A DNA stretch of 64,000 bases, from assembly GCF_000235425.2 (NCBI RefSeq), contig NZ_KI912266.1:460065-524064 (forward strand). Reading direction: 5' to 3'. Made by a program: the position numbers and the translations under genes. The notes under the pieces were generated by a model. It ran no database searches. It was given only the letters and a program-made list of their open reading frames with translations, and was not told the DNA's origin. Of the stretch, positions 1 to 14,037 are shown piece by piece; within the stretch, counting starts at the first letter, position 1; each line of letters begins with the position of its first letter. This DNA is from Pseudofrankia saprophytica. Lineage in GTDB: Bacteria; Actinomycetota; Actinomycetes; Frankiales; Frankiaceae.

Positions 1-966
1 CGGGTCGAGCCCGGCGGCGCTCTGCTCGACGCCCGGCCACGTGCCGCCGAGCACCCGGGTCGCGGCCGCCCGGACGTTGCCCCGCCCGGTCTCACCCAGC
101 AGCGTCAGCAGGATCTGGTCCGCCGACGGGCGCAGCCGCGGGTCGCGGCCCAGCGTCGCGGCGACGACGGCGCGCAGCTCGGACGGGAGGCCGGAGAGGT
201 CGGGTTTGCCGACGAGCACCCGTTCGGAGATCTCGTAGAAGGTGCCCTCGCCGTACGGGTGCACGCCCGTCGCGGCGTAGCCGATCAGTAGGCCCCAGGC
301 GAAGATGTCGGTGGCGGGCCCGACCGGGCTGCCCTCCATCTGCTCGGGGGCCATCCAGCCGAGCGACCCGAGCACGATGCCGGAACGGGTCCGGTTCGCG
401 ACGGCGTCCAGCGCGCGGGCGATCCCGAAGTCGATCACCCGGGGGCCCGAGTAGGACAGCATGACGTTGCTGGGCTTGAGGTCGCGGTGCACGATCCCGG
501 CGCCGTGGATCGCGGTCAGCGCGCTCGCCACGCCGATGGCGACGCCCTGCAGCGTGGACGTACCCAGCGGGCCGGACTCCTCGACGACGGTGTCCAGCCG
601 CTTGCCGTCGATGTACTCGGTGACGAGGTACGGCTGCCGGGCGTCCGGGTCGGCGTCGAGGACCTCGGCGGTGCAGAAGGGCGCGACCCGCCGGGCGGCC
701 GTCACCTCGTCGCCGAATCGGGCCCGGAACTCGGGGTCGTTGGCCAGCTCGCCGCGGATCACCTTGATCGCGACCCGTCGGCCATTGGAGTTCCGGCCGA
801 GGTAGACGGCGCCCATCCCACCGGCGCCGAGCCGGCTCAGCAGCTCGTACCGGCCGATCATGCGCGGGTCGGACGAGCGCAGCGGCTCACCGGGAACCGG
901 CGGCCCCGCGGCCCGCTCCGTCCAGACCGATCGCTCCGACACTGGCACCCCGCTCGTCGACCTCAT
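1..966 (-). CDS. Serine/threonine protein kinase, C-terminus cut by window edge
   Basis: Eukaryote-like (Hanks-type) kinase; its substrates are not evident. About 322 residues are visible. The ATP loop GAGGMG lies near residue 48, the lysine in VAIKVI near 67, the catalytic loop HRDLKPSN near 160 and DFG shortly after, so all catalytic motifs are intact. The ATG at 966 is the furthest in-frame start I can justify; a GTG nine codons later (MSERS-type start) is possible. The 3' end, with any membrane span or sensor domain, lies outside the window. Its core resembles the kinase at 5287-6735 (both read VLGSLG then xAPE after DFG), suggesting paralogs. It is divergent from the ferredoxin reductase gene. 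Confidence 0.9.
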   Translation of the reverse strand, partial: MRSTSGVPVSERSVWTERAAGPPVPGEPLRSSDPRMIGRYELLSRLGAGGMGAVYLGRNSNGRRVAIKVIRGELANDPEFRARFGDEVTAARRVAPFCTAEVLDADPDARQPYLVTEYIDGKRLDTVVEESGPLGTSTLQGVAIGVASALTAIHGAGIVHRDLKPSNVMLSYSGPRVIDFGIARALDAVANRTRSGIVLGSLGWMAPEQMEGSPVGPATDIFAWGLLIGYAATGVHPYGEGTFYEISERVLVGKPDLSGLPSELRAVVAATLGRDPRLRPSADQILLTLLGETGRGNVRAAATRVLGGTWPGVEQSAAGLDP

Positions 967-1608
967 TCTATCGTCCACGATCGTCCGCACATCCGGACCA
1001 TGATCCGGATCGCATGGCGCTCGACTCCCTGGCGGCCTGAAGCTTCCGAAGGCTCCCGAAGACCACTGGACCAGGCCACTGAACCCGTCTCCTGAGCTGG
1101 TCTCCTGAGTCCGTCTTCTGAGGACGGTGATCCTGGACCTCTGGCCTTGTACTGGCCGACGGTAACCCGCCGGCCAGCGCCCGCCGGCAACTTGTCTAAG
1201 TTCTGACCTTTCCAGCGCAAAAGGCGCGACGGTCGTCACAGTCCACCGGCCACCGCCGACCACCGCGGGCGCTACCGCCCACGTCCGGCGGTCAGCGCGA
1301 CGCGAGCCGGCCGACTCTCCGACAAGCCGGATCAGGGCACGTGACCCGGGCGTCGGGCAGTATGAGGGCCCAGGAGTACTCCAGTGGCATCGAACCGGAG
1401 CCTGGGCGGCCCGAGCGGAAGGACTCCGCCGGGCCGGGGCGTTGTCCTATTAGATCCTTGGGGCAACGGCCGCCGGGCGTGCATAGGAAGATCACTTCCG
1501 CACGCCCTTGGCCCTCTGGCACGGTCGGGCCATCGGTGGTCCGGGCCCAGCCGGGCCCGGAGCGATCCCCAGGGCCGGAGCCCGGCTGCCAGCGGATGGA
1601 GATACGGC
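967..1608. other. Non-coding stretch between divergent kinase and reductase genes
   Basis: About 640 bases with no convincing gene. It must hold promoters for the leftward kinase and the rightward reductase. A short direct repeat, GTCTCCTGAG with one variant copy, occurs at about 1088-1120. I saw no riboswitch consensus, although a sulfur-gene leader would be a plausible place for one. Confidence 0.5.
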
Positions 1609-2610
1609 ATGGGTGACACGTCCGTCGACCAGTCGGTCGACATGCTCATCGTCGGCGCCGGCCCGGCCGGGCTGTTCGGCGCTTACTACGCGGGCTTCCG
1701 CGGCATGTCGGTCGCGCTGATGGACTCACTTCCCGAGCCCGGCGGCCAGGTGACCGCCATGTACCCAGAGAAGGTCATCTACGACGTCGCAGGCTTTCCC
1801 GCCATTCGTGGGCGTGAGCTGGTTAACGCCCTGGTGGAGCAGGTAGCGCCGTTCAACCCCACCTACCTGCTCGGCCACCAGGCCGCCGAGATCGACCACC
1901 AGCCGGATGGCGTGCTGGTGACCAGCGCACAGGGCCTGCGGGTGCATGCCAAGGTCATCGTCATCACCGGCGGCCTCGGCACCTTCACCCCGCGCCCGCT
2001 GCCGACGGGCACCGAGCACCTGGGCCGGGGTCTGGTGTACTTCGTGCCTCGCCTGGACGACTACCGCGACCTCGACGTCGTGGTCGTCGGCGGCGGCGAC
2101 AGCGCCTTCGACTGGGCGCTGGCACTCGAGCCGCTGGCGAAGTCGGTCACCATCGTGCACCGCCGGGACAAGTTCCGCGCCCACCAGCACACCGTCGACC
2201 GCGTGAACGCGTCCTCCTGCGAGGTGCTCACCTTCACCGAGGTCGCCAGCATCACCGGCGACGATCGGATCGAGAAGGTCGAGCTGGTGCACAGCAAGTC
2301 CGGCGAGCGTCAGGTCCGCGAGGCCCAGGCCGTCGTCGCGGCCCTCGGCTTCACCGCCGACCTCGGCCCGCTCACCCGCTGGGGCCTCAACATCGACAAG
2401 CGGCACATCGTGGTGGACACGACGATGTACACCGGCGTCGAGCGCATCTTCGCCGCGGGCGACATCACCGAGTACCCCGGCAAGGTCCGCCTGATCGCCA
2501 CCGGCTTCGGCGAGGTCGCGACCGCCGTCAACAACGCGGCCCCGGTCATCGACCCGTCCCTCAAGGTCTTCCCCGGCCACAGCTCCGACGACGGCACCCC
2601 CGCCGCCTGA
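1609..2610 (+). CDS. Ferredoxin--NADP+ reductase, thioredoxin-reductase-like type
   Basis: A 333-residue flavoprotein expected to move electrons between NADPH and ferredoxin in the cytoplasm. The FAD-binding motif VGAGPAG is near residue 15, the NADP-binding motif VVGGGDSA near 165, and the C-terminal FAD motif with AAGDITEYPGK near 285. The CxxC redox pair of true thioredoxin reductases is absent, which fits the YumC-type ferredoxin reductases. ATG 1609 is chosen because GGAG sits about 9 bases upstream and the protein then begins right before the FAD motif; longer in-frame extensions look non-coding. Its position beside siroheme and ferredoxin-dependent sulfite reductase genes suggests it supplies reduced ferredoxin to sulfite reduction (inference). 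Confidence 0.88.
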   Translation: MGDTSVDQSVDMLIVGAGPAGLFGAYYAGFRGMSVALMDSLPEPGGQVTAMYPEKVIYDVAGFPAIRGRELVNALVEQVAPFNPTYLLGHQAAEIDHQPDGVLVTSAQGLRVHAKVIVITGGLGTFTPRPLPTGTEHLGRGLVYFVPRLDDYRDLDVVVVGGGDSAFDWALALEPLAKSVTIVHRRDKFRAHQHTVDRVNASSCEVLTFTEVASITGDDRIEKVELVHSKSGERQVREAQAVVAALGFTADLGPLTRWGLNIDKRHIVVDTTMYTGVERIFAAGDITEYPGKVRLIATGFGEVATAVNNAAPVIDPSLKVFPGHSSDDGTPAA

Positions 2611-2797
2611 GGCCCCGCGCGGCGGTTGATCGCCACCGGGACCACGCCCGCCCACCAGACGGTGGCGAGTGCGCTTGATCGCCATATCTGTATGGCAATC
2701 CGCACTAACGAAGGCTCGCAGTTCGGATTCGGCTACAGATCTGGCGATCTTCAGTGCCCTGAGGGGCGACGCCTGTGTGGCGGCGCAGACTGGGGGC

Positions 2798-3193
2798 ATG
2801 CGTGGGCTGCTGGTCATCGGGCACGGGTCGCGACGGGAAGAGGCCAACGCGACCGTGCGGGCCCTCGCGACGGCGCTGGCGGCCGAGCCGACGGTTGACA
2901 CCGCAACCGGAACATCGCCGGCCTGGGACGCGGTGGAGGCGGCCTTCCTGGACGTGCTGCGGCCGGACATCGCCGACGGGTATGCCGCGCTGGTCACGGC
3001 CGGATGTACCGAGATCGTCGCGCATCCGTTCTTCCTGTTCGCGGGAAAGCACACCGCACGGGATATTCCGGACGCGCTGGCGGCGGCCCAGGCGAGGCAT
3101 CCACACACCACCTGGACGGTGACCGAGCCGCTCGGCCTGCATCCCGGCGTCGTCGCGACGGTCCGGGCCCGCATCGCCGATCGCCTGCCCTAA
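2798..3193 (+). CDS. Sirohydrochlorin chelatase (CbiX/SirB-like, single domain)
   Basis: A 131-residue CbiX-type chelatase. It opens with MRGLLVIGHGSR, whose His is the metal-binding residue of the family, and has a second conserved His in the stretch EIVAHPFFLFAGKH. Such proteins insert Fe2+ or Co2+ into sirohydrochlorin; with sulfite reductase nearby, iron insertion for siroheme is the likely role. ATG 2798 places the conserved segment at the N-terminus; upstream in-frame sequence is not conserved-looking. The stop lies one base from the stop of the convergent CobA-HemD gene, so the two siroheme genes are tail to tail with no room for a separate terminator. Confidence 0.85.
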   Translation: MRGLLVIGHGSRREEANATVRALATALAAEPTVDTATGTSPAWDAVEAAFLDVLRPDIADGYAALVTAGCTEIVAHPFFLFAGKHTARDIPDALAAAQARHPHTTWTVTEPLGLHPGVVATVRARIADRLP

Positions 3194-3194
3194 G

Positions 3195-4976
3195 TCAGGT
3201 CTGGCGGTCCTCGGGGGGCGCCGCCAGGCGGCAGAGGGCGGTGACGAGGCCGGCGATGCCGGGCTCGTCGGCGACCGCGTCGACCCGGATGCCGGCCTCG
3301 CGGCAGGCGACGACCGTGCGCCGGCCCATCGCGGCCACCAGGAGGCCGGGCGGCAGCGGGCCGTAGAGCTCGGCGGTCACCCGGGCGGCCGTGGACGAGG
3401 CGAACGCGACGGCGTGGAGCGCGGCGCGGCGAAGCTCGTGGGCGATCATCGGGTCCGCCTGCGCCGGGATGTCGGTCTGCAGGGTGATCCGGCGGACCGT
3501 CCGGACGCCCATCGGCGGCGCGGCGGCGGCGCAGACGGCGACCCGCAGGCCGGTCACCGGGATCTCGGGGACTATGACGTGTGCCACCTGCACCTGGGCC
3601 GAGGACGGGACGTTCGCGAGCCCGAGCGCGTCCAGGGCCGCCACGGCGGACTCGGACGCGGAGACCAGCGTGAGGCCGGCGAGCGCCCGGACGTCCCGCC
3701 CGGCGCCACGAAGCAGCGTGACCACGGCGGACACCTCGTCCGCGTCAGCGAGCACCAGCGCGTCCGCGCCAGGCAGCGCCTCCAGGAGCGCGCCCGCGTC
3801 CGGTACCGGTGCCAGGCGCGACACCACCGTCTCGACCACCTCGGCGCCCTGGCGGCGCAGGTCGCGCGCGAGCAGGCCGGGGCGGTCCCTGGTGCGCGGC
3901 ACCAGCACCCGCATGCCCGTCAGCGGGCAGGCGGCGCCGTCCGCCGGCGCCGTGGGCAGCGCCAGCCGGCCCGGCTGGCCACCGCGCTCCTCCGGGGCAC
4001 CCCGCCTGTCCACGTCCTCGCGTTCCTCCTGCTCACGGTCAGGCCCCGGCCCTGGCCCCAACCCTGGCTGTGGCCTCGACCCGGGATTCGGCTCTGGCCC
4101 CGGTTCTGGCCATGACCGCGTTCTCGTCCTGGCCGGCGCCGGGAGGCGCGGCGGGAGGGGACGCGCCGACGCTGGCCGGGAGGCCGTGCCGCGGGCGTCG
4201 ATGCGGGCCGCGACGTCACCGACGACGATCACGGCCGGCGACCGCACCCCCGTCTCGACCGCGTCCGCGCCCAGCGACTCCAGCGTGGTGCGCAGCACCC
4301 GCTGGGCTGGGGTGGTGGCGCGCTCCACCACGGCGACCGGGGTGCTCGGCTCGCGGCCGGCCGCGAGCAGCGCCTCCGCGATCGCGACCAGGTGCGCGAC
4401 CCCCATCATGATCACGACGGTGAGCGACGGCGAGACGAGCGCCGACCAGTCCACCGTCGAGTCCGGGTGGCCCGGCGGCAGATGGCCGGCGACGATCGCG
4501 ACGTCCTGGGCGATGCCCCGGTGGGTGACCGGGATGCCGGCGTAGGCCGGACCCGCGAGCGCGGACGACACCCCCGGCACGACGGTCACGCCGATGCCGG
4601 CCGCCGCGCACATCTCGGACTCCTCGCCGCCCCGACCCAGCAGGTAGGGGTCACCCACCTTGAGCCGCACGACCCGGGCACCGCTACGCGCGCGGTCGAC
4701 CAGCACCGCGTTCGCCTCGTCCTGGCCGCGCACGTCCCCATCCGGGCCGACGCGCACGATCTCGGCGCCGGCGCGGAGGTAGCCGTGCAGGGGGGCATCC
4801 GCCGCCAGGTCGGTGACGATGACATCGGCGCCCGCGAGGAGTTCGGCACCACGCACGGTGATCAGGCCGGGGTCGCCGGGGCCCGCGCCGACCAGCCAGA
4901 CGTGACCACGGCGCCCTCCCCCGGCGCCGCCCGAGCGCGACGAGGTCCCGGCGCCGTTCCGCCCCCCGCTGGCCAC
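3195..4976 (-). CDS. cobA: Uroporphyrinogen-III C-methyltransferase fused to uroporphyrinogen-III synthase-like domain
   Basis: A 593-residue fusion. Residues about 25-265 are a SUMT domain with intact motifs: VGAGPGDPGLIT, LKVGDPYLLGRGGEE and VVPGVSSALAGPAYAGIP. This domain makes precorrin-2 from uroporphyrinogen III using SAM. A low-complexity linker of Pro-Gly-Arg repeats (about 266-345) joins it to a HemD-like domain beginning GMRVLVPRTRDRPG. The start is GTG at 4976. The gene is convergent with the chelatase, and together they cover uroporphyrinogen III to siroheme; no separate precorrin-2 dehydrogenase (CysG N-domain) is visible here. A second SUMT-HemD fusion at 56503-58359 has a degenerate SUMT half, so this copy is probably the methylating enzyme. 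Confidence 0.88.
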   Translation of the reverse strand: MASGGRNGAGTSSRSGGAGGGRRGHVWLVGAGPGDPGLITVRGAELLAGADVIVTDLAADAPLHGYLRAGAEIVRVGPDGDVRGQDEANAVLVDRARSGARVVRLKVGDPYLLGRGGEESEMCAAAGIGVTVVPGVSSALAGPAYAGIPVTHRGIAQDVAIVAGHLPPGHPDSTVDWSALVSPSLTVVIMMGVAHLVAIAEALLAAGREPSTPVAVVERATTPAQRVLRTTLESLGADAVETGVRSPAVIVVGDVAARIDARGTASRPASARPLPPRLPAPARTRTRSWPEPGPEPNPGSRPQPGLGPGPGPDREQEEREDVDRRGAPEERGGQPGRLALPTAPADGAACPLTGMRVLVPRTRDRPGLLARDLRRQGAEVVETVVSRLAPVPDAGALLEALPGADALVLADADEVSAVVTLLRGAGRDVRALAGLTLVSASESAVAALDALGLANVPSSAQVQVAHVIVPEIPVTGLRVAVCAAAAPPMGVRTVRRITLQTDIPAQADPMIAHELRRAALHAVAFASSTAARVTAELYGPLPPGLLVAAMGRRTVVACREAGIRVDAVADEPGIAGLVTALCRLAAPPEDRQT

Positions 4977-5031
4977 CCACGGAACGTTACCGACCTAGGG
5001 CGCCAACCCGCCGCCCAGTCGCCCCAAGGGC

Positions 5032-5265
5032 ATTGCTCCCACCCAACCCACGGGTCTTCGCGAGCATGTCGACGAGGACGGCCTCGCCATCGACGCGGCG
5101 ACGACGAGCTTGGTGCCGAACTTGTCGACGCGCTCGACCCAGCCGGCTGTCGGCGACCTGGAAGCGTGCGCAGGCGTTCGGGCAGCCGTTGATGTTGATG
5201 CCGATCGGCTCGTCGAAGTCCGGCAGGCGGCGTTCCAGCTCCTCGAGGAGGTTGCCGGCGTTGGC
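5032..5265 (-). pseudogene. Decayed chimera of cysH and sir (sulfite reductase) fragments
   Basis: The DNA is a mosaic of the intact operon downstream, in the same order and orientation. 5055-5130 matches cysH around 7567-7643, with one base deleted. 5131-5147 matches sir around 8097-8114. About 5150-5265 matches sir around 8322-8438, including the siroheme/4Fe-4S motif NGCPNACARFQVAD. The left end (5032-5040, ATTGCTCCC and following bases) matches the arm of the inverted repeat that lies downstream of intact cysH. A 96-residue frame happens to stay open through it, but it lacks most of both enzymes, so a function is unlikely. It is read as the remnant of a duplicated sir-cysH locus. Confidence 0.85.
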
Positions 5266-5286
5266 CATGCTCCCCAACCGGACCGG

Positions 5287-6735
5287 TCAGCCCCGACCTC
5301 GCGGCGGCTTCGAGTCGTGCGGCCGGCCGGAGCCTCTGGACTGACCGACGGACGACGGCCGCGCCGCGGTTCTCGGCTTGCCCGAGCCAGGCTCGCTCGG
5401 CGACGGGTCGGGCGCGGTGGACAGCGGTTGGGATGCCGCCGGCTCGCCGATCCGCTGGCCTGCCGGATCGGTTCCCACAGCGACGGGCGCGGCGGTCGTC
5501 ACCGGGTCGGCCGGTGCGGGCACCGTCGAGGCAGGGGCTACGGAGGCCGTCAGCGGCGACCGCTGCGTGTTGGCCGTTCCGGGAGAGCTTTCCGGCGCCG
5601 CGGCGACCAGTGCGGTCGCCGTGACGGCAAGTGCGGCGGCCGCACTGGCCGCCGGGAGCAGGACACGCCGTCGCCGCGCACCCGTCCCGGCCCGGGATGC
5701 GGGTCGCGGGCCGGGCCTCGTCTCGGCCTGGTCGGCAGGGTGGCCAGCCCAGGCAGGCAGGGATTCGGCGGACCGGTCCCCGCGCGCCGCCCCCTCGGTC
5801 GGCCCGAGGACGGCGGCGGCGGTCGAGCCCACCGCGGGTCGCACGCGTAGATCCGTCGTCGGCGCATCCGCCGAGGGCGCGTCGAGAACCGGCCTGTCCG
5901 CGCCGGGACCACCCGGGGTTCCCTCAAGCTGCCGCAGGATCTCGCTCGCGGTGGGACGACGCCGCGGGTCCTTGTCGAGGGCCGCCGCGACAAGGCCGCG
6001 CAGGCTGCCCCGGATGGCGCGCAAATCCGGAACGGTGTTGACGGTCCGGTAGAGCAGCGCCTCGACCGGACCGTCGCCGAACGGCGACCGCCCGGTCGAG
6101 GCGAAGACCAATGTCAGCGCCCAGGCGAAGATGTCGGCCTTGGGGCTCGGCCGGCCACCGTCGACGAGAAGCTCCGGAGCGATGTAGCCGAGGCTGCCCA
6201 GCACGATGCCGGACGCGGTCACCGTCTCCGGCAGGCCGGCCACAATGCCGAAATCGATGATCTTCGGACCGTCGGCGGCCAGCATGATGTTGCTGGGCTT
6301 GAGATCCCGGTGTACCACGCCCGCCTCGTGGACCGCGCGCAGCGCGTCGGCCACCCCGGCTGCCAAGGCACGCAGCCCGTCATCGGACATCGGCCCGTCC
6401 GCCAGCACCGAGTCCGTCAGCGTCAGCCCTGGCACGTACTCGGTCGCCAGCCACGGCTGCTCGGCGAGCGGGTCGGCGTCCAGCAACCTGGCCACCCGCG
6501 GGCTGTCGATCGCCGCGACGACGACGACCTCCCGGGCGAACCGGCGGCGCAGGGCCTGGTCGCCGTGGTGGTCGTCGCGCAGCACCTTGACCGCGGCCTG
6601 CCCGCCCCAGGGGTCCGAGCCGAGGTAGACAATGCCCATCCCGCCGCTGCCAAGCCGAGCACTGAGCCGATAGTGGCCTACGGCTGTCGGGTCGCTCGCC
6701 CGCAAAACCTTGCGGGTCCCATCGCTCGACGACAT
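5287..6735 (-). CDS. Membrane-anchored serine/threonine protein kinase
   Basis: A 482-residue Hanks-type kinase. The N-terminal catalytic domain carries the ATP loop LGSGGMGIVYLG, a lysine in AAVKVL, HRDLKPSN and DFG. A Pro/Ala/Arg-rich stretch follows, then one transmembrane helix (about residue 365, after RRRRVLLPA) and a Pro/Thr/Ala-rich extracytoplasmic tail without PASTA repeats. ATG 6735 is chosen because GAGGTGG precedes it at proper spacing; the frame is open far upstream but with no family similarity. It sits between the cysH/sir remnant and the intact sulfur operon, in the same direction. A regulatory link to sulfur metabolism is only suggested by position. Confidence 0.9.
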   Translation of the reverse strand: MSSSDGTRKVLRASDPTAVGHYRLSARLGSGGMGIVYLGSDPWGGQAAVKVLRDDHHGDQALRRRFAREVVVVAAIDSPRVARLLDADPLAEQPWLATEYVPGLTLTDSVLADGPMSDDGLRALAAGVADALRAVHEAGVVHRDLKPSNIMLAADGPKIIDFGIVAGLPETVTASGIVLGSLGYIAPELLVDGGRPSPKADIFAWALTLVFASTGRSPFGDGPVEALLYRTVNTVPDLRAIRGSLRGLVAAALDKDPRRRPTASEILRQLEGTPGGPGADRPVLDAPSADAPTTDLRVRPAVGSTAAAVLGPTEGAARGDRSAESLPAWAGHPADQAETRPGPRPASRAGTGARRRRVLLPAASAAAALAVTATALVAAAPESSPGTANTQRSPLTASVAPASTVPAPADPVTTAAPVAVGTDPAGQRIGEPAASQPLSTAPDPSPSEPGSGKPRTAARPSSVGQSRGSGRPHDSKPPRGRG

Positions 6736-7054
6736 AGCCACCTCGCTCACAGCGCACTCGACCGGCGCTCTCCCCCGCGTCACCAGCACAAATCGGGATG
6801 GGTGGGGCGTTACCCGTCTCATCGGCCGCGAAACGACGTTCGCGACGCCGTGAGGGATCGGGCCGCCGGGACCATCTCGGAGCGAGCGGCGGGGGGTAGG
6901 CGGCGGCGATCGAGCGCCGGCGGACCTCCGCCCTTGCCCAAACCATCCGGGCGAGGGCCCCACCTACTGGTCACACCCAACAGGCATTGCTCCCGCCCGG
7001 CCCGCGGCGAGGGACCCAGCTATCTTTGCTGGCGCAAAAATAGCTGGGGAGCAA
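6736..7054. other. Non-coding stretch: kinase promoter region and cysH downstream hairpin
   Basis: About 320 bases. The left part must carry the promoter and ribosome site of the leftward kinase. The right part holds the nested inverted repeat listed separately, just past the cysH stop. No further gene is supported. Confidence 0.5.
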
Positions 7055-7055
7055 T
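6986..7055 (-). terminator. Nested inverted repeat after cysH, probable terminator
   Basis: The inner stem pairs 7015-7028 with 7035-7048 (14 bp, one mismatch, loop CTGGCG) and is unusually AT-rich for this genome. The outer arms ATTGCTCCC (6986-6994) and GGGAGCAAT (7047-7055) are perfect 9-bp inverted repeats that enclose it and touch the cysH stop codon. The inner hairpin is well placed to end the sir-cysH transcript. The left outer arm and its flank recur at 5028-5052 beside the cysH/sir remnant. Confidence 0.7.
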
Positions 7056-7726
7056 CAATGGATTCCGCACTCGGTCTTGGTGGAGCCGGCCCAGCGGCCG
7101 GCGCGGCCGGCGCCGCGCTGGGTGCAGGGCCAGCAGCCGACCGACTCGTAGCCGTCGGACAGCAGCGGGTTGACGATGACGTTGTGCTCGGCGACGTAGC
7201 GTTCGACGTCCTCGTCCGTCCAGGTCGCGAGCGGGTGGATCTTCACCTTGCCGCGCCGCTCGTCCCAGCCGACGACCGGCAGTTCGCGCCGGCCGGCCGA
7301 CTCGGCCCGCCGCGAGCCGGCCGCCCAGGCCTTGTACGGGGCGAGCGCCCGGTCCAGCGGGACGACCTTGCGCATCCGGCAGCACAGGTCCGGATCGCTG
7401 GCGTACAGATCCTTGCCGTGGACGGCGTCCTGGCCGGCGACCGTCAGCTGCGGCCGGACGCTGATCAGCGGCAGGTTGTAGGTGGCGGCCACCGCGTCGC
7501 GGGTCCCGACCGTCTCGGCGAAGTGGTAACCGGTGTCGATGAAGACGACCGGCACGTCCGAACGGATCTTCGCGAGCATGTCGACGAGGACGGCTTCGGC
7601 CATCGACGCCGCGACGACGAGCTTGGTGCCGAACTCGTCGACGGCCCAGCGCAGCACCTCCTCGGCGGGTGCGTCGGCGAGGTTCCTGCCGGCGTGCTCC
7701 GCGCGGGTCTTCAATCCGGCGTCCAT
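7055..7726 (-). CDS. cysH: Assimilatory adenylylsulfate/phosphoadenylylsulfate reductase
   Basis: A 223-residue CysH reducing activated sulfate to sulfite in the cytoplasm. It contains the CC pair in DLCCRMRKV, the second pair in CWPCTQ and the C-terminal ECGIH motif carrying the catalytic cysteine. The two Cys pairs are the [4Fe-4S] ligands typical of the APS-using branch, so adenylylsulfate is the likelier substrate. ATG 7726 has GAGGAG upstream and shares its A with the TGA of the preceding small gene (TGATG), implying translational coupling. It is the last gene of the sir-(zinc ribbon)-cysH operon. ATP sulfurylase genes are not in the window. Confidence 0.93.
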   Translation of the reverse strand: MDAGLKTRAEHAGRNLADAPAEEVLRWAVDEFGTKLVVAASMAEAVLVDMLAKIRSDVPVVFIDTGYHFAETVGTRDAVAATYNLPLISVRPQLTVAGQDAVHGKDLYASDPDLCCRMRKVVPLDRALAPYKAWAAGSRRAESAGRRELPVVGWDERRGKVKIHPLATWTDEDVERYVAEHNVIVNPLLSDGYESVGCWPCTQRGAGRAGRWAGSTKTECGIH

Positions 7727-7962
7727 CAGCCGTTCTCCTCTGGTGCGGTGGTGCCAGTTGTGCGCGGGGTGCGAGAGGTGGTGCTGGTGGTCGTGGTGGC
7801 GCTGGCGAGCGCGGTGAGGCTCAGCCGGAAGGAGCGCTGGCAGGCGCGGCACGCCCAGTGGCCGTGGCCCTCGCCCGTCGCGCCCTCCGGGATGTCGGGG
7901 ACGAGGTCCTCCTCGCCGCAGTACGGGCAGTAGAAAGGCACCGCGCGACCCGTGCTCGCCAT
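7726..7962 (-). CDS. Small putative zinc-ribbon protein between sir and cysH
   Basis: A 78-residue protein with CPYCGEEDL near residue 10 and CRACQ near residue 37, a classic CxxC...CxxC zinc ribbon, followed by a Ser/Thr-rich tail. ATG 7962 follows the sir stop almost immediately (TGAGATG), and the end overlaps the cysH start. A small gene in this spot is, as I recall, common in actinobacterial sir-cysH operons. Its function is unknown; a role in handling sulfite reductase or CysH is a guess from context. A longer in-frame extension to 8034 would overlap the sir 3' end and is less likely. Confidence 0.75.
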   Translation of the reverse strand: MASTGRAVPFYCPYCGEEDLVPDIPEGATGEGHGHWACRACQRSFRLSLTALASATTTTSTTSRTPRTTGTTAPEENG

Positions 7963-7963
7963 C

Positions 7964-9748
7964 TCAGGTTCGCTCCCGGGGTGCCTGCCGGATCGGCGGA
8001 GCCTGCGGAGCCGATCCGGCAGGTCCGGCTTCACTCGCTCCTGCGCTCACAAGGTGCGCCATGACCGCGTCGTGGGTGAGGATCGACTCGTCCGCTCGCT
8101 CGACCCAGTCGGCGAACGCCTCGCCGTCGGCGCGCTCGGCCTGGTAGGTCTTCAGCAGCCCGACGACGTAGTCGACCAGCTCGGCCGAGGTGATCTTCAG
8201 GCCGCGTGACTTGCGGCCAAGCCGCGAGCGGGTGCCGAGATGTCCACCGAGGTGCAGCTGGAAGCCCTCGACCATCTCGCCGCCCGGCCCGGGGACGAGC
8301 GACCCCTTCAGGCCGATGTCGGCGACCTGGAAACGGGCGCAGGCGTTCGGGCAGCCGTTGACGTTGATCCCGATCGGCTCGTCGAACTCGGGCAGCCGCC
8401 GCTCCAGCTCCTCGATGAGAGTGGCGGCGTTGGCCTTGGTCTCGACGATCGCGAGCTTGCAGAACTCGATGCCGGTGCAGGCCATCGTGCCGCGGCGGAA
8501 CACGCTCGGGCGCACCACCAGGTCGAGCGCCGCCAGGTCCTGCTCGAGCGCCGGTACGTCGCTCTCGGCGACGTCGAGGATGACCAGTTTCTGCGACGTG
8601 GTCGCACGGATGCGGCCCTGGCCGTACTGGTCGGCGAGGTTCGCGACGGTCGTCAGCGTCGTCCCGGTGAGCCGGCCGGCGCGCGGCGCGAAACCGACGG
8701 CGAACCTGCCGTCCGCCTGCCGGTGGATGCCGACGTGGTCGCGCCCTTCGGAGCGCGGGGGCGCCGGCGGCGGGCCGTCCGGCAGCGGCGTGTCGAGGTA
8801 CTCCTTCTCCAGGGTGGCCCGCACCCACTCGGTGCCCATGTCCGCGACCAGGAACTTCAGCCGGGCACGGGTGCGCATCCGGCGGTAGCCGTAGTCGCGG
8901 AACAGGGAGGCGACGCCATGCCAGACCTCGGCGACCCGCTCCGGCTGCACGAACGTTCCCAGCCGGACGCCCAGCTTCGGGTTCGTGGACAGGCCGCCGC
9001 CGACCCACAGGTCGTAGCCGGGCCCGAGCTCCGGGTGGACGACGCCGACGAAGGCGATGTCGTTGATCTCGTGGAGCGTGCAGTGGTCGGCACAGCCGGA
9101 CATCGCCGACTTGAACTTGCGCGGCAGGTTCGCCAGCGACGGGTCACCGACGAAGCGGCGCACGGTCTCCTCGATCGCCGGGGTGGCGTCGATGATCTCG
9201 TCGCCGTCGACGCCGGCGAGCGGGCAGCCGAGCATGACGCGCGGGGTGTCGCCGCAGGACTCCTCGGTGGTCATGCCGGCGCCCTCGAGCGCGCCCCAGA
9301 TCGCGGGGACGTCCTCGATGCGGATCCAGTGCAGCTGGATGTTCTGCCGGTCGGTGACGTCGGCGACGTCCCGGCCGTAACGGGTCGAGATGTCGCCGAT
9401 CACCCGCAGCTGGTCGGACGTCATCCGGCCGCCGTCGAGGCGGATCCGCTGCATGAAGTAGGAGTCCTCGATCTCCTCGGGCTCCAGGATCGCGGTACGG
9501 CCACCGTCGATGCCGGGCTTGCGCTGGGTGTAAAGACCCCACCAGCGGAATCGGCCGCGCAGGTCCTGCGGGTCGATGCTGTCGAACCCGGTATAGGGGT
9601 AACGGTTGAGAATCCGGTCACGGACCTCGAGGCCGCCCTGGTCCTTCTTCATCCGCTCGTTGGCGTTGAGCGGCTCGGTGTAGCCAAGGGCCCACTGGCC
9701 CTGGCCCTTCGGACGGGCCGGACGGGCGGGCCGTGCAGGAGAAGTCAT
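7964..9748 (-). CDS. sir: Ferredoxin-dependent sulfite reductase (Sir/NirA family)
   Basis: A 594-residue siroheme/[4Fe-4S] reductase converting sulfite to sulfide with electrons from ferredoxin. The cluster ligands appear as CTGIEFC and, about 40 residues on, NGCPNAC, in the usual C-terminal half-domain. Further conserved segments are TDRQNIQLHWI and MSGCADHC. The family also includes nitrite reductases, but the neighbouring cysH, siroheme genes and cysteine leader point to sulfite. ATG 9748 has GAGAGAT upstream. The last ~15 codons run into a dispersed hairpin repeat (7975-8028), which may have extended the C-terminus. Confidence 0.93.
   Translation of the reverse strand: MTSPARPARPARPKGQGQWALGYTEPLNANERMKKDQGGLEVRDRILNRYPYTGFDSIDPQDLRGRFRWWGLYTQRKPGIDGGRTAILEPEEIEDSYFMQRIRLDGGRMTSDQLRVIGDISTRYGRDVADVTDRQNIQLHWIRIEDVPAIWGALEGAGMTTEESCGDTPRVMLGCPLAGVDGDEIIDATPAIEETVRRFVGDPSLANLPRKFKSAMSGCADHCTLHEINDIAFVGVVHPELGPGYDLWVGGGLSTNPKLGVRLGTFVQPERVAEVWHGVASLFRDYGYRRMRTRARLKFLVADMGTEWVRATLEKEYLDTPLPDGPPPAPPRSEGRDHVGIHRQADGRFAVGFAPRAGRLTGTTLTTVANLADQYGQGRIRATTSQKLVILDVAESDVPALEQDLAALDLVVRPSVFRRGTMACTGIEFCKLAIVETKANAATLIEELERRLPEFDEPIGINVNGCPNACARFQVADIGLKGSLVPGPGGEMVEGFQLHLGGHLGTRSRLGRKSRGLKITSAELVDYVVGLLKTYQAERADGEAFADWVERADESILTHDAVMAHLVSAGASEAGPAGSAPQAPPIRQAPRERT
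7975..8028. repeat. Dispersed hairpin repeat, copy at the sir 3' end
   Basis: Perfect 12-bp arms, TGCCGGATCGGC and GCCGATCCGGCA, separated by 12 bases and flanked by CCCGGGGT and AGGTCCGG. The same modules (CCCGGGGTCCCTGCCGGATCG, shortened here, and a CGGACCTCC-type flank) occur at 24746-24790, 47673-47716 and 48000-48122. Confidence 0.7.
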
Positions 9749-9874
9749 CTGATCTCTCGCGACGCGGTTAGCGGAGCGCCGAACGGCTGGACGGCGCCAG
9801 GATCCGGGAACGTCCCCGGCAGGCAGGACGGACCCAGGGAACTGGGCCGTGACCGGCGAAAGGGAACGGCGGGG

Positions 9875-10006
9875 TCAGCAGGCGCGACGACAGCAGGCGC
9901 TGGCTACCCGGAGCAGGTCGACGTGTAGCCGCTCGACCAGCAGAAGCTCCGGAACATCCTCAACCGCCATGGCCAGTGGCCGCATGGTCGGTTGGGGCGC
10001 AGACAT
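9875..10006 (-). CDS. Cysteine-tailed leader peptide upstream of sir (probable attenuator)
   Basis: A 43-codon frame, 126 bases upstream of sir, ending in VASACCRRAC. The segment RLHVDLLRVASACC strongly resembles leader peptides found before sulfur-assimilation genes in actinobacteria. In mycobacteria, cysteine-rich short upstream frames have been shown to sense cysteinyl-tRNA supply and control the downstream gene. Three in-frame ATGs exist (10006, 9985, 9970), giving 43, 36 or 31 residues. No strong ribosome site precedes any, so a leaderless start is possible. The 126-base gap to sir contains GC-rich segments able to form stems such as CCGGG...CCCGG. Confidence 0.7.
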   Translation of the reverse strand: MSAPQPTMRPLAMAVEDVPELLLVERLHVDLLRVASACCRRAC

Positions 10007-10019
10007 GGGACCTATGGTT

Positions 10020-10031
10020 TCACAGATGTGA
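10020..10031. promoter_or_regulatory. Small dyad upstream of the sulfur leader peptide
   Basis: TCACA-GA-TGTGA, embedded in GGTTTCACAGATGTGACC, lies 14 bases before the first possible leader ATG. It is a plausible operator for a dimeric regulator at the sir promoter; the regulator is unknown and the arms are short. Confidence 0.35.
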
Positions 10032-10148
10032 CCGCCGTGCCGCAGTTGTGGCCTAATCGATCCTCTGCACGCTGAGCTAACCACAATTACCCACCGGATG
10101 AATGGGAATAGTGGATGCCGGCGCAGCAGGGGCGGCGGATCGCGGGGA

Positions 10149-10550
10149 TCAGCGGCTGGGGGCCGGACGCCGGCAGACGGCGCGCAGGCGGTCGACGAGC
10201 GGGCCCGAGCCGAGCCCCTTCTCCATCACGTCGTCGGCTCCGAGCGCGAGAGCCTCGTCGCGCACGGTGTACGCGGAGAAGCCGGTGAAGACGACGACCC
10301 GGGCGGCCGGCGCCAGCCGGCGGACCCTGGGCAGCGCGGCGATCCCGTCGAGCACCGGCATCGCGACGTCGAGGATGACGAGATCGGGACCGGTCTCGGC
10401 GACGAGGTCGATCGCCTCGGCGCCGTTGGCGGCCCGGCCCACCACGGTGAAGTCCGGCTCCAGGTCCAGCAGGAGGCAGATCAGGTCGCGCACGCCGTCG
10501 GCGTCATCCGCGACGACCACTCGCAACGGGCCCGCCCCGTGGCGGGGCAC
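10149..10550 (-). CDS. Receiver-only response regulator
   Basis: A CheY-like phosphoacceptor domain. It begins PLRVVVADDADGV (acidic pair), has the phosphorylation site in LVILDVAMPVLDG and the FTGF threonine, and ends with a degenerate lysine region (VMEKGL). No DNA-binding output domain follows, so it acts by protein contact or in a phosphorelay. GTG 10550 is chosen because AAGGGG precedes it and gives a normal 133-residue receiver. The frame is open back to a GTG at 10797, but that 82-residue extension is low-complexity (ETEAVEIEA) and doubtful. No cognate kinase is adjacent. Confidence 0.75.
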   Translation of the reverse strand: MPRHGAGPLRVVVADDADGVRDLICLLLDLEPDFTVVGRAANGAEAIDLVAETGPDLVILDVAMPVLDGIAALPRVRRLAPAARVVVFTGFSAYTVRDEALALGADDVMEKGLGSGPLVDRLRAVCRRPAPSR

Positions 10551-11171
10551 CGCCCCTTCGGCGCCAGCCCCGGCCAGGCCCGGACCCACGGCCCGGGACG
10601 GCTCGACGACCCGGGGACCACTCCCTGGGCTTCCTGGACGCGCGACACCGTCCGGACGGATCTCGCTTCCGACGGGGAAGCTGTCCGGACGGCGACGAAC
10701 AGCTTGGAGCGCCTCGATCTCAACCGCCTCGGTCTCAACCGCCTCGGCGCCCGTCTGGAGGTGCCGGTCCACTCGTACCGTTCTACCGGACCACACAAGG
10801 TGTGCCCATCGTCATTCAGGGTGGTATTCGCGCATGGCCCGGGCGGGGGCCTCACCACGCCCCGGGCGCCCCGGAAGCCGTCGCGATGTGCAGTCGCGCC
10901 ACATACAACCAGTAATCAAGGTGACCGTACGCGTATGGGACCTTTGGCCTCTAGCCGGATATGGTGCTCGACGCAATAGACTGATCACCAACAGTGACAC
11001 GCACGTGGGTCATGTGGCGACATGGTCATGCGGCGACCTAATCCCGTCGGTAGGGCCTCCTCGAAGGGCCTCGCCGGTCGGCCTTCGCGGCATGGTCGCC
11101 GTACAGCCCGACTGTGCGGCGGGCTGCCGCATCGCGACAGTATGACCGCGGCCGGGACGAGTGGAGCGCAG
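10551..11171. other. Intergenic region with an AT-richer core between divergent regulators
   Basis: About 620 bases, or 375 if the response regulator starts at 10797. The part from 10890 to 11050 is clearly less GC-rich (for example CACATACAACCAGTAATCAA and TACGCGTA), as expected of promoters. No gene, repeat family or RNA was recognised. Confidence 0.45.
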
Positions 11172-12353
11172 ATGCGGCATTCGGGCAACCGGCAGAGCAG
11201 CCGTGGCCCGGAAGGCGCGGCCACCGCCGAGGAGATCTTCCATCAGGAGGTTCGTCGGCACAGGTGCGCCCGCGGGCTCTCCCGTGACGACGTGGCGCGG
11301 CGGACCGGCTACAGCCGTCAGTACGTCAGCCAGCTCGAACAGCCGAGCAAGGGAATTCCTCCTCGGCCCGTGGTCGTCGCCGTCGACGCGGCGCTGAGCG
11401 CCGACGGGGCGCTGGTCGCGCTGCGCGACCAGGCCATGGCGGCGCGCGCCGAACGGGCCGGCCGGCCGCGCGACCCGGAGCGTGAGTCCCGCCGCCGGGT
11501 CGACGACCTGCTGCACAACCGCCGCCGCGACAATGACCTCGACTACCTGGACCGCATGGTGGGCGAGCTGATCGCGATGGCGGACGGCCTCAGCCCCCAG
11601 GACGTCTGCGACCAGGTCCTCGACCAGCAGGAGTTCGTCGACGCCCTGCTGCGCACCCCGATGCTGCCGCACCAGCAGTTCCGGCTCTACATGATCGCCG
11701 GGCACCTGGCGGGGCTGCTCGCGATCGCTCTGCTCGACATGGGCGACCTCGGCGGCGCGAGCACCTGCTGCCTGGAGGCCGCGGTCTTCACCGAGCTCAC
11801 CGGCCACGAGGGGCTGCGGGCCTGGACGCTGGCGGTCAACCGGCTGGTGGGTGAGGCGGCGCGGCACGCGGAAACGGTCGTCCACCGCGACGGTGACGAC
11901 CGCGCGGACCCGTCCCGCGAGGCGGGCCCGGCGCGGTTCATCGACCCGGCCGCCTTCGCCGACCAGCTGAAGCTCACCGACGAGGCCGAGCTGGCCGACA
12001 CCGGCCAGATCTTCCTGGCCGACGGTTATGTCGACGGCTATGACGAGCCCGACCGGATCGGCTACGCGGCCACCGCCGGCGCCACCGAGGCGTCGTCCGA
12101 CCCGATCATGCGCCGCGCCGACGAGCTGGCGGCCGGTCGGCCGGACGCCCACGAGCGGGCATTTCTCGACGCCGAGCCGGCCAGCCCGCCGTGGCGCGGC
12201 CTCTCGGACCTGATGACCGCCCCCGGCGGGCGGGCCAGCACTCCGCGGCTGGTCGCGCTGGTCAAGGGCCGGATCGCCCGGTTCGCCACCACCAGCGCGC
12301 GGCGCGAACGCCCGCCGTACGGCATCTCGCGCGCGTTCCACCCCCCGGTCTAA
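11172..12353 (+). CDS. XRE-family helix-turn-helix protein with large C-terminal domain
   Basis: A 393-residue protein with an N-terminal lambda-repressor-like helix-turn-helix (about residues 20-75: CARGLSRDDVARRTGYSRQ followed by VSQLE). A roughly 300-residue helical region follows, of the type seen in actinobacterial Cro/CI regulators with TPR-like domains. ATG 11172 is chosen for the GGAG five bases upstream; ATG 11142 is an alternative. It is convergent with mqnA. The target genes and signal are unknown. Confidence 0.75.
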   Translation: MRHSGNRQSSRGPEGAATAEEIFHQEVRRHRCARGLSRDDVARRTGYSRQYVSQLEQPSKGIPPRPVVVAVDAALSADGALVALRDQAMAARAERAGRPRDPERESRRRVDDLLHNRRRDNDLDYLDRMVGELIAMADGLSPQDVCDQVLDQQEFVDALLRTPMLPHQQFRLYMIAGHLAGLLAIALLDMGDLGGASTCCLEAAVFTELTGHEGLRAWTLAVNRLVGEAARHAETVVHRDGDDRADPSREAGPARFIDPAAFADQLKLTDEAELADTGQIFLADGYVDGYDEPDRIGYAATAGATEASSDPIMRRADELAAGRPDAHERAFLDAEPASPPWRGLSDLMTAPGGRASTPRLVALVKGRIARFATTSARRERPPYGISRAFHPPV

Positions 12354-12363
12354 CAGGGGTTCA

Positions 12364-13677
<1,314 letters not shown>

Positions 13678-14037
13678 CTAACGACGACGGGGACGCTTAC
13701 GTACCCATCCCAGCCGGAGCAGCACGCTTGGGTAACAGGCCAGGCAGACGATGACCGTCAGCAACCCCAGCAGCGAAGCCGGGCCGAGCCCCAGGCCGAG
13801 CGCGTGCAGGACAAGGTAGACCGCGATCCCGGGCACCAGGATCACGATGAACGCCAGTACGAAGATGGACCCGATGCCGGCGTGGCCGGGCGGGAGGGGA
13901 GCCGGACGCCCCGCCCGGTCCGGGCCGGGCGCCGGCCGGCCGGCCGGCGCCGAGCCCGCGGACGTGACCGCGGGCGACGACGGCGCGCCGCCGGGCGCCT
14001 GGGCGGCCGCGGGAGTCCTCTCCTGATCGGCGGTCAC
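13678..14037 (-). CDS. Hypothetical small membrane protein in menaquinone operon
   Basis: A 119-residue protein with a Pro/Ala-rich N-terminal 50 residues, two hydrophobic helices (about 55-75 and 82-102) and a basic end (VRKRPRRR). It starts at GTG 14037, twelve bases after the mqnE stop, so it is probably co-transcribed. I do not recognise a family. Confidence 0.7.
   Translation of the reverse strand: MTADQERTPAAAQAPGGAPSSPAVTSAGSAPAGRPAPGPDRAGRPAPLPPGHAGIGSIFVLAFIVILVPGIAVYLVLHALGLGLGPASLLGLLTVIVCLACYPSVLLRLGWVRKRPRRR

Follow-up and report, generated by a model that had tools for sequence, protein, structure and literature searches.

A decayed second cysH-sir segment beside the intact genes in Pseudofrankia saprophytica

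Remnants of redundant gene copies, whether duplicates or xenologs, are a known kind of bacterial pseudogene, and the displacement in situ of genes within operons is likewise an established concept. The locus described here lies in a stretch of 64,000 nucleotides from the genome of the soil actinobacterium Pseudofrankia saprophytica (the window) and has features of both. Like other bacterial pseudogene remnants, it consists of collinear pieces of redundant genes that lie next to an intact copy and have suffered deletions and a frameshift; it is unlike the usual remnants in one point only, namely that the variants it shares with relatives still suggest a progenitor other than the recent resident copy. 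As in displacement in situ, a second, related version of operon genes is present at the operon's own place; unlike in displacement, the resident copy stayed here and it was the second copy that decayed. Literature titles and the opening lines of abstracts contained no mention of this relic.

The relic is real and ordinary in kind, a fossil of genome rearrangement. In the reading preferred here, with a probability of about 0.75, positions 5022-5266 of the window are the remains, without function, of a second cysH-sir segment whose progenitor was other than the recent resident copy, with a kinase gene inserted alongside. The relic leaves the knowledge of sulfur assimilation unchanged. On a small scale it illustrates how a second version of part of an operon can enter, or arise at, the site of that operon and then disappear, here with the kinase gene between cysG and cysH, and it serves as a warning not to annotate the 96-codon open frame across it as a gene.

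The relic and its intact counterpart

The features of the locus, all on the minus strand, are as follows.

3195-4976, minus strand: cysG, a uroporphyrinogen-III methyltransferase / HemD fusion (TIGR01469, PF02602), the left neighbour of the relic, adjoining cysH in relatives
4987-5277, minus strand: 96-codon open frame, spanning pieces of two genes
5022-5049, minus strand: relic, intergenic piece (DNA directly downstream of cysH), matching 6976-7003
5050-5130, minus strand: relic, 5' part of cysH, matching 7562-7643 with one base deleted
5131-5147, minus strand: relic, 3' end of sir, matching 8097-8113
5148-5266, minus strand: relic, conserved NGCPNACARFQVAD region of sir, matching 8317-8435
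5287-6735, minus strand: Ser/Thr protein kinase gene (PF00069), between the relic and intact cysH
6976-7057, minus strand: intergenic stretch downstream of intact cysH that corresponds to the left flank of the relic and contains a hairpin (about 7015-7048)
7055-7726, minus strand: intact cysH, phosphoadenylyl-sulfate reductase family (NF002537, PF01507)
7964-9748, minus strand: intact sir, nitrite/sulfite reductase family (PF01077, PF03460)

A sequence-only reading of the window had described segments of cysH and sir, in correct order and orientation but with large internal deletions and one frameshift, between the siroheme gene and a kinase gene. Alignment with the intact stretch 6976-8435 bore this out and set the extent of the relic at about 5022-5266, between cysG and the Ser/Thr kinase gene. 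The four pieces follow the DNA below cysH, cysH and sir in both order and orientation, the gaps relative to the intact stretch amount to about 560, 450 and 200 bases, and about 245 of the 1460 bases remain. The match of the left flank to DNA downstream of cysH was also confirmed, with 25 of 32 bases identical between 5022-5053 and 6976-7007, an exact 12-mer included; GGGCATTGCT of this flank was also seen by eye in the one cysG-cysH gap of relative G004. The cysH piece is identical to intact cysH at 77 of 81 bases (34/36 for 5050-5085 against 7562-7597 and 43/45 for 5086-5130 against 7599-7643) and is without the base corresponding to 7598, which results in the frameshift. In sir, 16 of 17 bases of the short piece 5131-5147 match 8097-8113 (read off the alignment), the larger match of 5140-5272 to 8309-8441 is identical at 115 of 133 positions, and its core, 5148-5266 against 8317-8435, at 106 of 119. 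The identity of about 85-90% given earlier by eye holds for sir (86-89%) but is too low for cysH (95%).

The score of each relic piece was compared with those of its dinucleotide shuffles, the 17-mer being tested against the collinear gap. The observed score was reached in 5 of 2000 shuffles for the left flank (4990-5049), in 0 of 400 for the cysH piece, in 0 of 2000 for the sir 17-mer and in 0 of 400 for the NGCPNACARFQVAD piece, so that, in the nucleotide alignment proposed earlier as a check, above-chance matches are found outside the siroheme motif as well. Similarity stops near 5266, with 5267-5290 against 8436-8700 at chance level (1176 of 2000 shuffles). The share of sir in the relic is its 3' quarter only (up to 8435 of 7964-9748), and nothing of the 5' three quarters was seen in the alignment or the shuffles. 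The suggested former doubling of the entire end of the operon goes beyond the parts represented in the relic, which are intergenic DNA, cysH and this quarter of sir. Within these bounds, alignment and shuffles give good support to the view that a second cysH-sir segment has decayed here through deletions: the similarity to functional genes is significant and collinear, most of the gene is missing, and the three gaps and the one-base deletion show decay directly.

It was also considered that the relic might be filler DNA, that is, short bits copied from nearby genes during insertion of the kinase gene by end-joining, and never a real second copy. The pieces are indeed short, the inserted kinase gene ends right next to the relic and, as read off the alignment, bases are shared at the first junction (CGG) and none were seen at the other two. 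However, all four pieces are collinear in a single orientation, and filler copied from the resident should at first have had its exact sequence, yet most of the differences are states known from functional relatives (see below), which makes filler a very improbable origin.

The locus in relatives and the kinase gene

The relic genes were sought in 41 genomes, with the 18 best first-look candidates per genome scored, and in eight genomes of the genus, with up to 40 scored; both sets include the window's own genome. Among the scored candidates, a second pair of sir-type and cysH-type matches occurred in the window's genome only, while several of the searched genomes contain short, dispersed matches with E values of about 1e-5 to 1e-3. 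The locus was read in 20 of 24 genomes of the same genus and family (left out were G010, which had no match, G021, G023 and G024). The order cysG-cysH-sir was found in all 20 without a kinase in between, no relic was found in their cysG-cysH gaps, and a second cysH or sir was absent at all of these loci. The comparison with relatives that had been proposed in search of a full second copy thus returned none, and CysH gave a single match at E<=1e-10 in each of the eight genus genomes.

When each of the 20 gaps was compared with the cysH-sir of its own genome, weak hits of 60-82% identity were obtained in five (G005, G007, G011, G017 and G020), the best with an E of 1e-6 in G005. These are read as GC-rich background because similar hits fill the window's own relic alignment. 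Apparent gaps of 1.1 kb in G017 and G020 proved, by reading of the frames, to be the remainder of their cysG. Longer gaps are present in three relatives, with a frame carrying a DDE transposase domain in G008, a lactate/malate dehydrogenase-type gene in G011 and reading frames in G009. The first two show that other things have also entered the cysG-cysH gap, which seems to take insertions repeatedly.

The nearest relatives of the kinase within the genus show 70% (G005), 64% (G004) and 78% identity (G001, kinase domain only) and sit at places unlike the window locus. At cut-offs of 80 and 100 bits their neighbourhoods have only the kinase in common with the window, and likewise only the kinase among themselves, except for one 92-residue stretch common to G005 and G001. 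As the relatives' kinases are at unlike places, the gene in the window is probably, judging from these comparisons, an arrival between cysG and cysH. About 110 bases upstream of it are common to G005 (74%) and G004 (70%). A kinase gene beside a second cysH-sir was not found in the eight genus genomes or at the 20 loci, a small sample. A plasmid source for 5015-7060 was rejected: BLASTN against plasmids matched 61 records, none covering more than 80% of the query, and in the 20 of these that were listed the matches lie in the kinase part. It should also be noted that the Ser/Thr kinases of the window (5287-6735 and 1-1263) belong to a large set: a search of the genome with the kinase gives 38 matches at E<=1e-40, its own among them.

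Progenitor of the second segment

Substitutions were compared over 217 aligned relic columns. Across these the relic shares 91.7% of its bases with the resident copy, 91.7% with G005, 90.8% with G002 and 88.9% with G006, and the resident is 95.4% identical to G005 and 94.5% to G006. Raw identity over the 133-base sir match is highest to G012 and G022, which belong to another genus (120/133 versus 115/133 for the resident). The relic differs from the resident by 18 substitutions, 14 of which are states found in at least one of the 20 functional relatives (10 within the genus and four in the family only). Random changes from the resident, simulated at the same codon positions in 20000 trials, gave 5.4 shared states on average and never reached 14. 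If three columns that could reflect change in the resident itself are removed, 11 of 15 differences are shared (reached in 6 of 20000 trials), and if four are removed, 10 of 14 (12 of 20000). The differences do not resemble random decay from the resident, and this excess of shared states suggests that the relic once was, or came from, a working gene unlike the recent resident.

Five columns carry a state that is diagnostic for the resident or its clade. The relic lacks this state at four of them, all in sir, and has it at one, in cysH, so that it could be a mosaic or partly converted. The divergence of sir (14/136) and that of cysH (4/81) are not significantly different (Fisher p=0.21). Third codon positions account for 11 of the 18 substitutions (binomial p=0.014). 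None of the four substitutions private to the relic is at a third position, against 11 of the 14 shared (Fisher p=0.011), a pattern that fits later neutral decay but is not relied on, since the comparison was devised once the columns were known and carries a bias, states shared with relatives being by nature commoner at third positions.

A placement tree was constructed from cysH and sir of the 20 relatives and the resident, with the relic contributing 217 bases only. The best placement was on the branch to the resident, G005 and G006, with adjacent deep branches within the genus scoring almost as well. A position beside the resident was 5.6 log units worse and was not rejected with the combined data (AU p=0.17). 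Positions inside other genera were rejected (AU p 0.035 or less), save the branch at their base (0.07). With the sir part alone, the resident placement was rejected (p=0.015) and the genus was not separated from other genera (p=0.82 at their base, 0.36-0.40 at several places inside). The cysH piece alone preferred the resident by 3.4 log units (p=0.94) and accepted a place outside the clade (p=0.21). In controls, each of the fragments that cover these columns in G005, G006 and the resident fell inside their clade by 8-10 log units, with an outside placement rejected for G005 and G006 (p 0.03-0.04) but not for the resident (p 0.10-0.13). A fragment of G002 landed at its position in the tree; fragments of G004 and G007 did not. 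The tree appears to favour, without being decisive, a place deep within the genus and outside the clade of the resident. A single history outside that clade is compatible with the combined, sir-only and cysH-only placements, and a mosaic is also possible.

These results bear on the simplest origin, a plain tandem duplication of the resident intergenic-cysH-sir DNA in this lineage, with the kinase gene inserted between the copies and the left copy decaying. Adjacent copies of equal order and orientation would be expected from it, and both the placement of the cysH piece and the combined AU value fit with it. It is nevertheless unlikely, as the shared states exceed random decay even without the columns in which the resident may have changed, the state of the resident or its clade is absent at four of the five diagnostic columns, and the sir part alone rejects it. 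Of the two origins offered by the sequence-only reading, a segment acquired again and then lost is supported, and for duplication of the resident, shared variants and tree favour another progenitor although a sister position to the resident withstood the combined test.

In the preferred reading, that of a progenitor other than the recent resident, the second segment would have descended from another working gene, most likely one that belonged to this genus yet lay beyond the clade formed by the resident and its two nearest species. It may have entered by recombination from a related strain or have been retained from a duplication older than that clade, and the kinase gene may have arrived jointly with it or been inserted beside it. 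Being redundant, the segment would then have lost bases by deletion and gained neutral substitutions. The relic today is probably without a role, with the intact cysH-sir doing the job. More doubtful is a narrower version, in which a single recombination event, with the relic as its footprint, brought cysH-sir and the kinase gene of a related strain into the sulfur operon, the sir part being derived from the donor and the cysH part from the resident; a few hundred bases would in that case preserve traces of the donor, the crossover and the subsequent loss. Intact cysH looks resident-type over its whole length, so that integration by a single crossover within cysH-sir is unsupported and such a crossover would have to lie in the short intergenic stretch.

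The 96-codon frame and minor features

The existence of the 96-codon open frame might point to a functional small gene, or the relic might encode a regulatory RNA. The frame is, however, a fusion of pieces of two genes. It has no Pfam match and only three weak NCBIfam matches derived from the sir motif (the best at 21.6 bits versus a cut-off of 523), and Rfam gave no match in positions 1-14000 of the window. No counterpart of the relic was found in the other 40 of the 41 genomes or in the other seven of the eight genus genomes, nor was a conserved frame for a small protein found in the other genomes searched. Conservation of the 96-residue product would have spoken against a fossil, as the earlier reading recognised, and was not observed. 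The frame gives no evidence of a gene and the sequence searches gave no sign of a function for the relic, so that a functional small frame or RNA, unsupported by the genome, Pfam, NCBIfam and Rfam searches, has a negligible probability.

The hairpin at 7015-7048, just below intact cysH, is strong (RNA fold z -5.6) and is perhaps a terminator. In a pattern search allowing up to three mismatches it occurred once, in one of the eight genus genomes, namely this one, which is not like a mobile repeat; duplication driven by such a repeat was rejected.

Between sir and cysH, a small CxxC zinc-ribbon-like ORF is present (7726-7962, minus strand), with sub-threshold family matches only (scanned as 7726-7956, without the first two codons) and with a similar stretch in 11 of the 20 relatives. 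Upstream of sir, positions 9875-10006 (minus strand) encode a putative Cys-rich leader peptide of 43 residues with the C-terminus CCRRAC, a known kind of feature matching NCBIfam NF042934 at 34.8 bits versus a cut-off of 27.
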